Assembly: GCA_945292135.1 (NCBI GenBank)
Contig: CALYRA010000051.1
Coordinates: forward strand, 1 to 7,222
DNA length: 7,222 nucleotides
Direction of reading: 5' to 3'
Origin: an uncultured Dysgonomonas sp.
GTDB lineage: Bacteria > Bacteroidota > Bacteroidia > Bacteroidales > Dysgonomonadaceae
Part shown: one piece after another, positions 2,444-7,222 of the stretch
Numbering within the stretch: the stretch's first letter is position 1
Layout: each line of letters opens with the position of its first letter
The notes under the pieces: model-generated
Told to the model about the DNA's origin: nothing
The model's input: the letters and a program-made list of their open reading frames with translations, nothing else
Database searches by the model: none
Program-made: the position numbers and the translations under genes

Positions 2444-3250
2444 ATGATCAAAAAAACGTTAATTACTGTTGTAGCTGTTTGCGCAATATTTGTATTTGCT
2501 AACTCTGCTCAAGCTCAGCCCGGAAAAGGTTTTGGAAAATCATTAGGTAAAGCAGCTAAAAGCGCTGGAAAAGTTGTAGGCGATGCTGCTATGGGCATGG
2601 CCGGCGATATGGCCGCAAACCAAGTTTCCGCTAAAATGGCAGCATTTATGGATAACAATAACACTGTTGCTCAACCCGATAATAAATATTATAAAAGATT
2701 AGAAGCATTAGTTGCTCCTAAATACATTACAGTTGATGATCTAACATTAAATTACCAAGTTTATCTTAATGATGAAGCAAATATACTTGCTTTAGCTGAC
2801 GGAAATATACGTGTATATTCAGGAATGATGGATCTTCTTTCTGATGATGAATTATTGGCTGTAATCTCAACACAAATTGGTCATATCGCAAATAAAGATG
2901 TTCGTGACAACCTAATGAAGATTGCATCAGAAGATAATGCAAGCAAAGCAGCAGGAAACCAAATGGAAAAAATGTTGGCTTTATCAGGTGATAAATTAGG
3001 TTCTATTGTTAATGAATTAATTCAAATTCCTTATACTGAAGAACAAAACTTTGCTGCTGATACTTATGCTCGTGATCTATTGAAAAAGAATGGTTCAAAT
3101 GTTAAAGCGTTAGTATCTGCACTTAACAAATTTGCTGAATTGGAAGAAGCTGACGCAATTGCTTCTGAATCAGAAGAAGGAGAATTAAGTTCCGCTGCAA
3201 AATTTATTGGCGTGAACTCAGGCAATTCACTTCGCGCTGATCGCTTTTAA
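2444..3250 (+). CDS. Secreted M48/LoiP-like protein lacking the zinc-protease residues (pseudo-peptidase)
   Basis: 268 residues starting with a clear signal peptide (MIKKTLITVVAVCAIFVFAN, then SAQA before QPGKG, cleavage near residue 24). There is no good lipobox. Residues 26-68 are a Gly/Ala/Lys-rich, probably helical segment. The M48 domain runs from about residue 80: LNDEANILALADG, NIRVYSGMMDLLSDDELLAV (121-140), then ISTQIGHIANKD. By family pattern (E. coli LoiP/YggG has VIGHEMGHV here) the HExxH motif should occupy 143-147, but reads T143-Q-I-G-H147: the first His ligand and catalytic Glu are lost and only the second His remains. The third-ligand Glu of the EAD motif is Ala204 (EEQNFAADTYARDLL), and the C-terminal His-Pro of LoiP-type proteins is also absent. 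It is thus probably not a protease, though the fold and frame are intact. The ATG at 2444 is preferred over the TTG at 2393, which lies inside the promoter and would add 17 residues before the signal peptide. It follows the amidase by 95 nt and has its own promoter and terminator. Function unknown; a binding, chaperone or regulatory role in the periplasm is an inference. Confidence 0.85.
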   Translation: MIKKTLITVVAVCAIFVFANSAQAQPGKGFGKSLGKAAKSAGKVVGDAAMGMAGDMAANQVSAKMAAFMDNNNTVAQPDNKYYKRLEALVAPKYITVDDLTLNYQVYLNDEANILALADGNIRVYSGMMDLLSDDELLAVISTQIGHIANKDVRDNLMKIASEDNASKAAGNQMEKMLALSGDKLGSIVNELIQIPYTEEQNFAADTYARDLLKKNGSNVKALVSALNKFAELEEADAIASESEEGELSSAAKFIGVNSGNSLRADRF

Positions 3251-3279: not shown

Positions 3280-3326
3280 TAACAAAAAGAGGAATGCTTT
3301 ACATTCCTCTTTTTGTTATATTTTTT
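3280..3326 (+). terminator. Intrinsic terminator of the M48-like gene
   Basis: The arms 3280-3296 and 3302-3318 pair perfectly over 17 bp (core AAAAAGAGGAATG / CATTCCTCTTTTT) around a 5-nt loop CTTTA. A T6 run follows at 3321-3326. It starts 30 nt after the stop codon. Confidence 0.93.
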
Positions 3327-3766: not shown

Positions 3767-4009
3767 ATGAACATAGTATATGTAGTAATAGCCACTCTTG
3801 TACTTAATATACCTTTAGGTCGGTGGCGAAACAAATATAAAAAATTTACAATTATTTGGTGGTTACTAATCCATGCCTCAATACCTATAATTGTTGCGAT
3901 GCGAATTTGGCTTGATACGCCCAGAGTTTGTATCCCACTTTTTATTTTCTTAGCAATATTAGGGCAACTGATTGGATCAAAGTTATTGTTTCGAGACAAA
4001 AAATCTTAG
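3767..4009 (+). CDS. Small integral membrane protein of unknown function
   Basis: 80 residues with three hydrophobic stretches: about 1-15, 28-46 (TIIWWLLIHASIPIIVAM) and 54-73 (VCIPLFIFLAILGQLIGSKL). A basic loop RWRNKYKK (19-26) separates the first two, and the tail is RDKKS. The NIPLGRWR ... HASIPIIVAMRIWL pattern resembles short hypothetical membrane proteins that I recall from Bacteroidetes and Proteobacteria, which supports this strand over the opposite-strand frame covering the same bases. The start is fixed: an in-frame TGA lies at 3758-3760 and the next Met is residue 45. The basic loop after helix 1 suggests a cytoplasmic loop with the N-terminus outside, by the positive-inside rule. 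It stands alone, with a promoter almost touching its start and no clear terminator. No function can be assigned. Confidence 0.72.
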   Translation: MNIVYVVIATLVLNIPLGRWRNKYKKFTIIWWLLIHASIPIIVAMRIWLDTPRVCIPLFIFLAILGQLIGSKLLFRDKKS

Positions 4010-4292: not shown

Positions 4293-5027
4293 ATGATAAC
4301 TAACAACTTTAGCAGTTATAATGAAGAGAATATTCATCCCGGTTTTTCGGTAGATTGTGTAATATTTAGCTTCAATAAGGGAAAAATAAACGTATTATTA
4401 AGAAAGTTTGAACTCGAAGATTATTGGTCTTTATTGGGAGGATTTATGTTCAATCATGAGGATGCTGATGGAGCAGCTTATCGCATATTAGAATCTCATA
4501 CCGGATTAAAAAATATTTTTCTTAAGCAATTTCATCTTTTTAGCGATCCCAAAAGAACAGATATAGAGCAAAATAGAGATTATTTAAATAAAAATTCATC
4601 TATAAATCATGACGGTCACTGGCTCTTAAGAAGATTTATAAGTTTAGGATATTACGCGCTTGTGAAATATGATGAAGTACAACTTTCGGGCAGTCCTGAT
4701 GAAACTTTAAAATGGTATGATATAAACAAACTTCCTCACCTGCAATCTGACCATAATGACATTATAAAAACCGCATTAAAGACAATTAAAGCTATGCTGC
4801 CTGTCATACCTATAGGCTACGAACTTTTACCGGAGAAGTTCACTATGACCGAGCTTCGAAAAATATATGAGATCATTTTAGGGAAAACATTTGATCGCCG
4901 AAATTTTCAGCGGAAAGTTCTATCGGATGGGCGTATTGTGCAATTGGAAGAGACTAAAACTAGTAAAACATATAATCCACCTATATTATACACATTCAAA
5001 CATCCATATAAAGAGGATATTATATAA
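4293..5027 (+). CDS. Nudix-fold transcriptional regulator, NrtR/AraR type
   Basis: 244 residues in two parts. Residues 15-165 form a Nudix-like sensor domain (FSVDCVIFSFNKGKINVLLR, then DYWSLLGGF). The rest, from about 175, is the winged-helix DNA-binding domain typical of this family (ELLPEKFTMTELRKIYEIIL, then FDRRNFQRKVL). The Nudix box at 50-72 keeps the frame G50-x5-E56-x7-R64 and the closing G71-L72, but the REUxEE core reads R64-I-L-E-S-H: three of the usual Glu positions are Ile65, Ser68 and His69. Pyrophosphohydrolase activity is therefore unlikely and the domain probably only binds a ligand. Known Bacteroides members of this class, such as AraR of B. thetaiotaomicron, sense sugars. 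It faces the rhaT-rhaD operon, so a role in rhamnose control is possible but unproven. The start lies 30 nt after a probable -7 element. Just after the stop the same frame encodes LEERLKAID before another stop, perhaps a lost C-terminal tail. Confidence 0.9.
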   Translation: MITNNFSSYNEENIHPGFSVDCVIFSFNKGKINVLLRKFELEDYWSLLGGFMFNHEDADGAAYRILESHTGLKNIFLKQFHLFSDPKRTDIEQNRDYLNKNSSINHDGHWLLRRFISLGYYALVKYDEVQLSGSPDETLKWYDINKLPHLQSDHNDIIKTALKTIKAMLPVIPIGYELLPEKFTMTELRKIYEIILGKTFDRRNFQRKVLSDGRIVQLEETKTSKTYNPPILYTFKHPYKEDII

Positions 5028-5410: not shown

Positions 5411-6220
5411 CTATTTGGGAAGATTAAACGCTTTACCTAATGCTATCATATCTTCCATAGATGTTCCTGTCGGTTCGTAACCCATCGATTTAGCCGCTAT
5501 ATAAATAAGCGCAGACTTATTTAATGTATCCACCATGTCAAATGCTTCCATAATATCACTACTAACAGAACATACTCCATGTTTTTCCCACATCACAACA
5601 TCATATTCTGATAATGCGGCGACTGTAGCATCTGCCAATTCTACCGAACTAGGCATTTTATAAGGAATTATACCTAAGCCTTTCGGACAAAATGCTCTTG
5701 TTTCCGGGATCATGCTCCAAAGAAGGTATGTCAACTTATCTTTCTCCAAGAATTCAGGTTTATGGGTCATCGCTATCAATTCGATAGGATGAGTATGTAA
5801 TGCTGCCTTATATCCTGAACCTGTACTAATCATATAATCATGCATAGACAAATGTGAAGGCAATTCTGATGTCGGCTTCACAGGATTATCAGCAATAATT
5901 TCATACGAGCTGCAATCATCAAGGATGCGGATAACAGACCCATTTTCCATAGGCCAACGAGCCAAATCACGCATACGGCGGTTTGTTCCCTTACAGAAAA
6001 AATAACAGCCTTTCAGGTTTGGAAGAGTTTTACCTATTTCGAAAACTTCACTTATTGGTTTCATCGCGCGAACCTCATCATCAATGACATCAGTTATATT
6101 TATTGTGATATTGCCGCCGTTTCTTTCAGCCCAACCTTTTTGCCATAAATATCCTGCTACCTCCGCGACGTTTGCTACCTGTTTTGCCAATTGGGGACGA
6201 TTATCTAAAATTGATTTCAT
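5411..6220 (-). CDS. rhaD: Rhamnulose-1-phosphate aldolase
   Basis: Cytoplasmic class II (zinc) aldolase of L-rhamnose breakdown: L-rhamnulose-1-phosphate gives dihydroxyacetone phosphate and L-lactaldehyde. The 269-residue length is close to E. coli RhaD (274). Visible motifs are WAERNGGNITI (30-40, phosphate-binding region), GCYFFCKGTNRRMRDLA (71-87), TSELPSHLSMH (117-127) with catalytic Glu119, zinc ligands His142 and His144 in ALHTHPIELIAMTH, and His214 in MWEKHGV. These match the E117, H141, H143, H212 set of the E. coli enzyme. The ATG follows an A/T-only leader without Shine-Dalgarno. It starts 28 nt after the rhaT stop, in the same direction, so the two are co-transcribed. RhaD is the last gene of the operon here: a terminator follows directly and no lactaldehyde reductase (fucO) lies behind it. 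Confidence 0.97.
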   Translation of the reverse strand: MKSILDNRPQLAKQVANVAEVAGYLWQKGWAERNGGNITINITDVIDDEVRAMKPISEVFEIGKTLPNLKGCYFFCKGTNRRMRDLARWPMENGSVIRILDDCSSYEIIADNPVKPTSELPSHLSMHDYMISTGSGYKAALHTHPIELIAMTHKPEFLEKDKLTYLLWSMIPETRAFCPKGLGIIPYKMPSSVELADATVAALSEYDVVMWEKHGVCSVSSDIMEAFDMVDTLNKSALIYIAAKSMGYEPTGTSMEDMIALGKAFNLPK

Positions 6221-6248
6221 TTTTAATTATATTATTATATTTAAATTT

Positions 6249-7222
6249 CTACTGCTGCGAAATTGCAACGACGCCAATAGACGAGATTAATATCACTAAT
6301 CCAAGTACTAATACGCAAATCGTTGTTTTGCTAACACCTTTCCACTCTTTGAGGACGATACCCCATACGTTGCTAAACACAACATTCAGAGACATTAAGA
6401 TTGTCCAAGAAAAAGCAAGTAACAAGGGACTGTCATTCAGGAAGCTTTTACCCATTTCCAAACCGAAGAATTGGGAATACCAAAGTACGCCTGCTAATGC
6501 ACAAAACAGAATATTGTTTACTAAAACATTTTTAGGAATATTAAAATATTCGTTGCCGGTCTTATTCTTAATATTTTGTTGAACGCAATAAACGGCATTT
6601 GTAAGAAAACCTCCAAGCGTGACCAAGAATATAACGGGAAGTCCGGCATAAAGAGGGTCGATTCCAAGATTCAATGCTACCGTTTTGATCGGCGTACCTG
6701 CATCCAATCCCAGAGCAAAACAGGCACTCATTACGCCTGCCAATAATGCGACTAAAAGACCTTTGGTCAAAGCAAAATCTTTTACGGCAGCTTTTTTCTC
6801 TTCTTCACTCATATTTTTGGAACGAAGGCTTCCTGCATATCCAATAATTGCAATACCTGCCAGCGTAATGCAAACTCCTATCAAAAGGAGTAATCCCTCT
6901 CCATGAAATAAATCTTTACCAACCAATAAAGCAGGGAATAACGTACCGAAAGCGGCGCATGTACCTAATGAGATACTTTGCCCTAAAGCTACGCCTAAAT
7001 ATCTCATGCTAAGTCCAAATGTGAGACCTCCAACACCCCAAAGCACTCCATATATAATTGATTTCATCGCGCCTCCAGAGCTCCACAGCTGAAATAATCC
7101 AACATCTGAACTTATAGCCAATAATGAACCTAACAATGGAAAAACAAGCCATGCGAATATCCCTTGTACTAACCAAAAAGACTCCCATGACCAATTCTTT
7201 ACCTTCTTGATAGGAACATACG
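6249..7222 (-). CDS. rhaT: L-rhamnose/H+ symporter, 5' end outside the window
   Basis: Inner-membrane carrier that imports L-rhamnose with protons; drug/metabolite-transporter-like fold with about ten helices. The frame stays open from the stop at 6249 to the right edge, giving 323 visible residues. The family is about 340 residues (E. coli RhaT 344), so roughly 20 N-terminal residues are missing. The first visible residues (YVPIKKVKNWSWESFWLVQG) are the conserved cytoplasmic loop and second helix of RhaT. Downstream come GVLWGVGGLTFGLSMRYLGV, ALGQSISLGTCAAFGTLFP, a charged loop SLRSKNMSEEEKKA between the two halves, and LWYSQFFGLEMGKSF near the end. The TTG at 7134-7136 is an internal Leu codon, not the start, because RhaT-like sequence continues upstream of it. 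Its promoter and any regulator site lie outside the window. Confidence 0.96.
   Translation of the reverse strand, partial: YVPIKKVKNWSWESFWLVQGIFAWLVFPLLGSLLAISSDVGLFQLWSSGGAMKSIIYGVLWGVGGLTFGLSMRYLGVALGQSISLGTCAAFGTLFPALLVGKDLFHGEGLLLLIGVCITLAGIAIIGYAGSLRSKNMSEEEKKAAVKDFALTKGLLVALLAGVMSACFALGLDAGTPIKTVALNLGIDPLYAGLPVIFLVTLGGFLTNAVYCVQQNIKNKTGNEYFNIPKNVLVNNILFCALAGVLWYSQFFGLEMGKSFLNDSPLLLAFSWTILMSLNVVFSNVWGIVLKEWKGVSKTTICVLVLGLVILISSIGVVAISQQ

Follow-up and report, generated by a model that had tools for sequence, protein, structure and literature searches.

The pseudoprotease gene and its former active site

The window analysed here is a stretch of 7,222 nucleotides that forms contig C51 (CALYRA010000051.1) of a draft genome of an uncultured Dysgonomonas sp. 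(GCA_945292135.1; 2.0 Mb, 416 contigs, 71.6% complete). On its forward strand, an open reading frame (ORF) of 268 codons plus stop (2444-3250) encodes a protein that, judged from its sequence, is very probably a conserved pseudoprotease of the M48 family. The assignment was based on the ORF, on matches in Pfam and NCBIfam, and on 119 relatives found in the second of two protein searches. Pfam Peptidase_M48 (PF01435) matched the protein with 42.3 bits against a cut-off of 20.3 (E 9.3e-11), which places it in the family by sequence, the same model was matched by all 65 members of alignment A1 at E up to 0.01, and the structure model of the window protein is confidently of M48 type. The nearest NCBIfam model was LoiP (NF052399; E 5.5e-38), with 130.8 bits and thus below the curated cut-off of 365; an HExxH-containing paralogue from genome G007 was likewise under that cut-off (191.7 bits). 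The M48/LoiP-like identity proposed in an earlier note on this DNA was upheld by these matches.

The protein begins with a hydrophobic stretch ending in AQA-Q, which was read by eye as a signal peptide of residues 1-24 (2444-2515, +) with cleavage likely after AQA, and export to the periplasm is predicted. Among 121 relatives without HExxH, the AxA-Q/K pattern was present in 93 and a lipobox-like pattern in one. The 268-codon frame of the earlier note was confirmed, as was its signal peptide by this reading.

An element TATATTTG (2388-2395, +) lies upstream of the gene as its putative own promoter and matches TAnnTTTG, which we take to be the Bacteroidetes-type -7 consensus. Across 16 loci carrying a pseudoprotease gene, TAnnTTTG was found within 170 bp upstream at 12 (all except L012, L013, L043 and L049), compared with a mean of 2.4 and a maximum of 6 in 300 shuffles. 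A sigma-70 scan gave 6 matches against 5.7 in shuffles. Downstream, a 17-pair terminator hairpin with a T-rich stretch behind it was observed (3280-3318, +; -22.2 kcal/mol, z -9.8), and at 12 of the 16 loci (all except L012, L040, L043 and L049) the hairpin behind the gene exceeded each of 30 shuffles in stability. Since each of the two elements stands beside 12 of the 16 loci, the gene looks like a transcription unit of its own, and the earlier claim of an intact promoter and terminator agrees with their presence in the window and their recurrence.

At the former active site, HExxH is replaced by T143-Q-I-G-H147 (2870-2884, +), as the sequence and the alignments agree and as had been claimed. 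A genuine HExxH at another place in the protein was considered and ruled out, as the full sequence contains none. The protein has a single His, H147, and a single Cys, C13, which lies within the signal peptide; this leaves no way to build a standard His/Cys zinc site. The earlier note had put Ala204 at the place of the third-ligand Glu; this was not borne out, as three alignments (with 39 HExxH homologues, profile against profile, and with BepA chain 6sar in its own numbering) place BepA E201 on Asn202 (3047-3049, +), and column 204 is a non-ligand position with Ala in 24 of the 39 HExxH rows. With N202 as the third position, the statement that the first His, the catalytic Glu and the third ligand are all gone still holds. 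The C-terminal His-Pro is missing as well, as had been claimed: the alignments show N258-S259-x4-R264 (3215-3235, +) in place of the active-site plug HPx4R, with R264 kept. This plug is conserved across the Pfam family according to Bryant et al. (PMC7950410). The features of an active M48 metalloprotease, namely HExxH, the third-ligand Glu and HPx4R, are thus each replaced in the window protein (TQIGH, N202 and N258-S-x4-R264), and the protein is predicted to bind no zinc.

Conservation and selection among the relatives

The first protein search, with a pseudoprotease query, returned 90 relatives, none of them with HExxH; the second, with alignment A1, scored the 7996 candidates with the most words in common and returned 119 matches. 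The 121 protein ids from both searches included seven with HExxH (P0115-P0121). Both searches used pseudoprotease queries and the absence of HExxH among the relatives is therefore partly ascertained, with the gap in bit scores between the two kinds of protein and a phylogenetic tree serving as safeguards. In the second search the pseudoproteases scored at least 264 bits and the HExxH proteins at most 167, with no intermediate form among the matches; below 264 bits, the only pseudoproteases were the half-length P0113 and P0114 (132 and 135 residues; 183 and 176 bits). A maximum-likelihood tree of 79 rows (40 without and 39 with HExxH), computed without six motif columns from 24 protein-search rows, the window protein and all locus rows of a 138-row alignment, separated the two states by a single branch with support of 100/100.

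The 138-row alignment comprised 39 HExxH rows and 99 others; exact duplicates were merged, and 13 locus proteins were excluded as duplicates or as partial or remote matches. H143, E144, H147, E202, H258, P259 and R264 were present in all 39 HExxH rows, whereas the 99 other rows had Q144 in 98, H147 in 98, N202 in 78 (S in 17) and N258 in 89. In the wider set of 121 rows without HExxH (120 distinct, P0113 and P0114 not counted), the first His was found in none, Q144 in 119 and H147 in 112; HPx4R was found in one of these rows and in 46 of 46 rows of the HExxH comparison set. The replacement is clade-wide and beyond chance, with column 202 mostly Asn or Ser. Ranked by conservation among 261 columns, 144, 258 and 202 came 20th, 54th and 70th, whereas column 143, that of the first ligand, drifts (rank 251); the alignment indicates that columns 144, 202 and 258 are not free to vary.

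Such counts also bear on the possibility that the protein is still catalytic through other metal ligands or another chemistry. Acidic residues such as D70, E111, E191 and D206, which vary little or not at all within the clade, would fit this explanation, but D70 and D206 are common to the proteases and are hence not new ligands, the sole His, H147, is lost in 9 of 121 rows, the mature part is without Cys in 94 of 121, and Gln occupies the general-base position in 119 of 121. Remaining catalysis is considered very unlikely.

Ratios of nonsynonymous to synonymous substitution (dN/dS) were low where they could be estimated. Only one of the 32 pseudoprotease pairs listed (L006-L008, which does not include the window gene) had dS below 1, with the Nei-Gojobori (NG86) value absent in 7 pairs; for this sole unsaturated pair, dN was 0.03 and dS 0.45-0.58, giving dN/dS of 0.05-0.08 by three methods, which is not near 1. 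HExxH pairs with dS below 1 (NG86) gave 0.02-0.06. Comparisons of the window gene (62-67% identity) were saturated, with NG86 dN/dS of 0.12-0.21 in four of five and no value in the fifth.

Gene decay, or a sequencing error confined to a single genome, would account for residues that deviate from the family pattern in a draft that is 71.6% complete, but the same pattern was found in 120 distinct sequences from several independent sources, dN/dS was about 0.06 in the single usable pair, and no internal stop occurred among the 34 matches listed. Decay or error was rejected on the clade-wide pattern and the low dN/dS, and is regarded as extremely improbable. Catalytic residues have been lost in an evolutionarily kept lineage, as in a metallopeptidase pseudoenzyme, and the view of the earlier note, a maintained pseudoprotease and not a decaying gene, agrees with the clade-wide replacement, the 100/100 branch, the low dN/dS, the confident M48-type model and the recurrence of promoter and hairpin.

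Several further observations were made within the clade. A sub-branch (P0082, P0098-P0105 and relatives) is also without the second His, reading QAAQ, QAGQ, SASQ or QIGY, with Gln144 kept in all except one, and P0101-P0105 no longer have a Pfam assignment in the database. Genome G015 carries two pseudoprotease copies, one on C117 (L007; 442 bits) and one on C235 (L049; 274 bits), the latter belonging to a diverged sub-branch, with QVGH and without the C-terminal tail. Among 16 named relatives, 8 are in Dysgonomonas records and 2 in Dysgonamonadaceae. Two records titled "Prevotella sp." (L033 and L039) carry pseudoprotease genes that sit among Dysgonomonas-type ones in the tree, going by L004 and L011, the contigs that match them and that come from genomes of the window's genus; the titles may be wrong.

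Genomic setting and distribution

In the window, the pseudoprotease gene is preceded by genes for enolase (67-1353) and an Amidase_3 protein (1494-2348, +; Pfam). An operon of the pseudoprotease with the amidase was considered and rejected, the amidase not being common to the other compared loci. Where the second zinc His is usually found, the amidase reads FIHLDSR; its remaining ligands seem present by eye, given what we take to be the ligand pattern. Further downstream lie a hydrophobic ORF of 80 residues (3767-4009, +) with no family above the cut-off in Pfam or NCBIfam, a regulator with an NrtR/AraR-type winged helix and a NUDIX domain (4293-5027, +; Pfam), and, on the reverse strand, a class II aldolase and a RhaT-type transporter (5411-7220). 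The regulator adjoins the aldolase and transporter genes, and these perhaps form a rhamnose-responsive set.

In the locus comparison, with families other than enolase and amidase named by eye, HExxH genes mostly had YchF-, GNAT- or PolA-like neighbours. At seven pseudoprotease loci the neighbours were PurC- and methyltransferase-like, and those of the window gene are enolase and an amidase. Because these neighbour families differ, the genes look to be in separate genomic places, and inactivation in place of a local LoiP-like gene was rejected. At one HExxH locus (L071, G332:C11:457301-458933), two LoiP-like matches stand in tandem (164.5 and 142.5 bits), of which only the first is in the alignment.

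The pseudoprotease gene (at least 396 bits) was found in 11 of 101 genomes of the family, ten of them belonging to the window's genus, and in 2 of 393 genomes of an order-wide sample in which up to six candidates per genome were scored and the window's own genome was counted. Of 25 genus genomes, 9 carried only the pseudoprotease gene and 10 only a LoiP-like gene with HExxH, one had the two together and 5 lacked them (Fisher p 0.012); for the 18 near-complete ones the counts were 6, 9, 1 and 2 (p 0.013), both tests being uncorrected for kinship. A second M48 protein of about 282 residues, with HEVAH, HPx4R and a lipobox-like start, was encoded in all seven near-complete genus genomes with the pseudoprotease gene (G007, G008, G009, G010, G015, G024 and G026). 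The search for an active paralogue in the window's own, incomplete genome found one other M48 protein, of 411 residues with HEIGH.

A regulator or decoy, in which the dead protein restrains cutting by binding either an active M48 protease of the envelope or that protease's substrates, would fit the constant company of this lipoprotein-like protein with its active motifs, and pseudoenzymes often regulate active relatives, according to a 2024 review of inactive metallopeptidases (PMC11266112). However, the roughly 282-residue protein is likewise encoded in G005, which is without the pseudoprotease gene, the pseudoprotease and LoiP-like genes share no neighbourhood, and the LoiP-like protease, the nearest active relative, occurs together with the pseudoprotease gene in only 1 of the 25 genus genomes, which speaks against a regulator of that paralogue. 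A regulatory role is considered unlikely. We infer a non-catalytic role and, since the two genes so rarely co-occur, favour holding over regulation of the LoiP-like paralogue: the best-supported, if tentative, reading is that the protein holds envelope proteins while they are unfolded or assembling, without cutting them.

Gained features, candidate roles and known systems

Seventeen columns were at least 90% fixed in the pseudoprotease clade and at most 15% in the HExxH rows, and eight of them fall in the 35-column stretch that separates the former zinc helices (p 0.0008; thresholds and region were picked after looking, and the columns are not independent). This segment (residues 163-197; 2930-3034, +) contains Q173, K176, L178, G182, N190, E191, Q194 and P196 and aligns with the region of the putative active-site lid that Bryant et al. 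(PMC7950410) describe in BepA and in 3C37. The edge strand N113-I-L-A116 (2780-2791, +; model strand 114-116) corresponds to N105-A-F-A108 of BepA in the 6sar alignment, and N113 is present in 138 of 138 rows, with and without HExxH alike. In BepA, N105-A106-F107 contacts LptD and is needed both for proteolysis and for the chaperone-like step, as reported in PMC8423444. At the N-terminus, the structure model has a predicted Gly/Ala-rich helix (residues 33-71; 2540-2656, +); within residues 26-72, GxxxG was found in 89 of 121 rows without HExxH and in 0 of 46 with it, and the mean small-residue fraction of this segment was 0.34 and 0.26, respectively.

These features suggest how holding might work. 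As in BepA, clients would be bound by strand addition at the edge strand; lid residues specific to the clade may clamp or select these clients, the polar set Q144/N202/N258 may substitute for the metal, and the Gly/Ala-rich helix could replace the tetratricopeptide repeat (TPR) domain of BepA as a docking or oligomer element. In its most specific form the protein would be a dedicated periplasmic client clamp made from a dead M48 protease, with fixed equivalents of E137Q and H246N of BepA, a new and nearly invariant lid motif (Q..K, NE..Q) and the Gly/Ala-rich helix, that replaces the LoiP-like protease in part of Dysgonomonas and its kin. This form is doubtful; if true, no chaperone-type pseudoprotease family would precede it within M48.

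Several points weigh against the holder. The window protein carries the equivalents of the laboratory changes E137Q and H246N in BepA, and BepA E137Q is protease-dead and retains no more than a weakened chaperone-like action (PMC8423444). Neither E137Q nor H246N nor the mutant with both changes complements, and all three have a dominant-negative effect (PMC7950410); such behaviour implies that losing proteolysis alone makes no good chaperone, and the dominant-negative effect may reflect binding without resolution. BepA docks to the β-barrel assembly machinery (BAM) through its TPR domain, whereas the window protein ends at residue 268 without a C-terminal TPR domain or a Pfam TPR match. The residues after N113 are changed, A-F in 39 of 39 HExxH rows giving way to I/L in most others; the core of the model is weaker at the lid segment (block means of 58 and 76 for 161-180); and the sole gene pair permitting a dN/dS estimate is one without the window gene. 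The altered edge-strand side chains would also suit a quite different use of the kept fold (envelope structural, or lipid- or glycan-binding), in which the lid fills the cleft and the Gly/Ala-rich helix does the work. The 17 gained columns, eight of them in the segment over the cleft, and the N-terminal segment, the part most unlike the HExxH rows (GxxxG), are in line with such a use, which we nevertheless judge improbable.

The family matters because M48 proteases such as BepA join cutting and chaperone-like action, which are hard to separate in one protein, and the pseudoprotease family is a natural separation in which cutting is removed and the fold and edge-strand framework are kept. It is testable, as the gene is present in genomes that are not labelled as metagenome bins (Dysgonomonas sp. 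BGC7, Marseille-P4677, Marseille-P4361 and 216). Several public entries named "M48 family metalloprotease" are without the residues for that activity. The literature search, which covered titles and abstract starts outside subscription journals and preprints, found no bacterial M48 pseudoprotease family among the matches listed and no Dysgonomonas vesicle proteome, and "M48" is nowhere in the text of the review of inactive metallopeptidases (PMC11266112).

Compared with known systems, LoiP (YggG) of E. coli and the HExxH homologues of Bacteroidales (L014-L031, L046-L048, L050, L070-L085 and L087) have the same length and domain order as the window protein, and the LoiP-like HExxH profile matched the pseudoprotease profile over 246 columns (probability 100, E 1.8e-49). 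The pseudoprotease clade differs from the LoiP group in the loss of zinc ligands and catalytic Glu, in new lid residues, in the Gly/Ala-rich N-terminal segment, in the rarity of a lipobox-like start and in mostly different genomic places. BepA (YfgC) is an active zinc M48 peptidase with chaperone-like action in outer-membrane protein assembly, whereas the window protein lacks the ligands and keeps only the strand and N113 of the BepA-type edge-strand framework. The Geobacter M48 protein 3C37, unlike the window protein, has HExxH (HEINH in the alignment). Known pseudometallopeptidases, as the same review describes them, are likewise inactive, kept by selection and thought to act through protein contacts, while the present case is a bacterial clade with predicted export. 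Pseudoproteases are well known as a kind.
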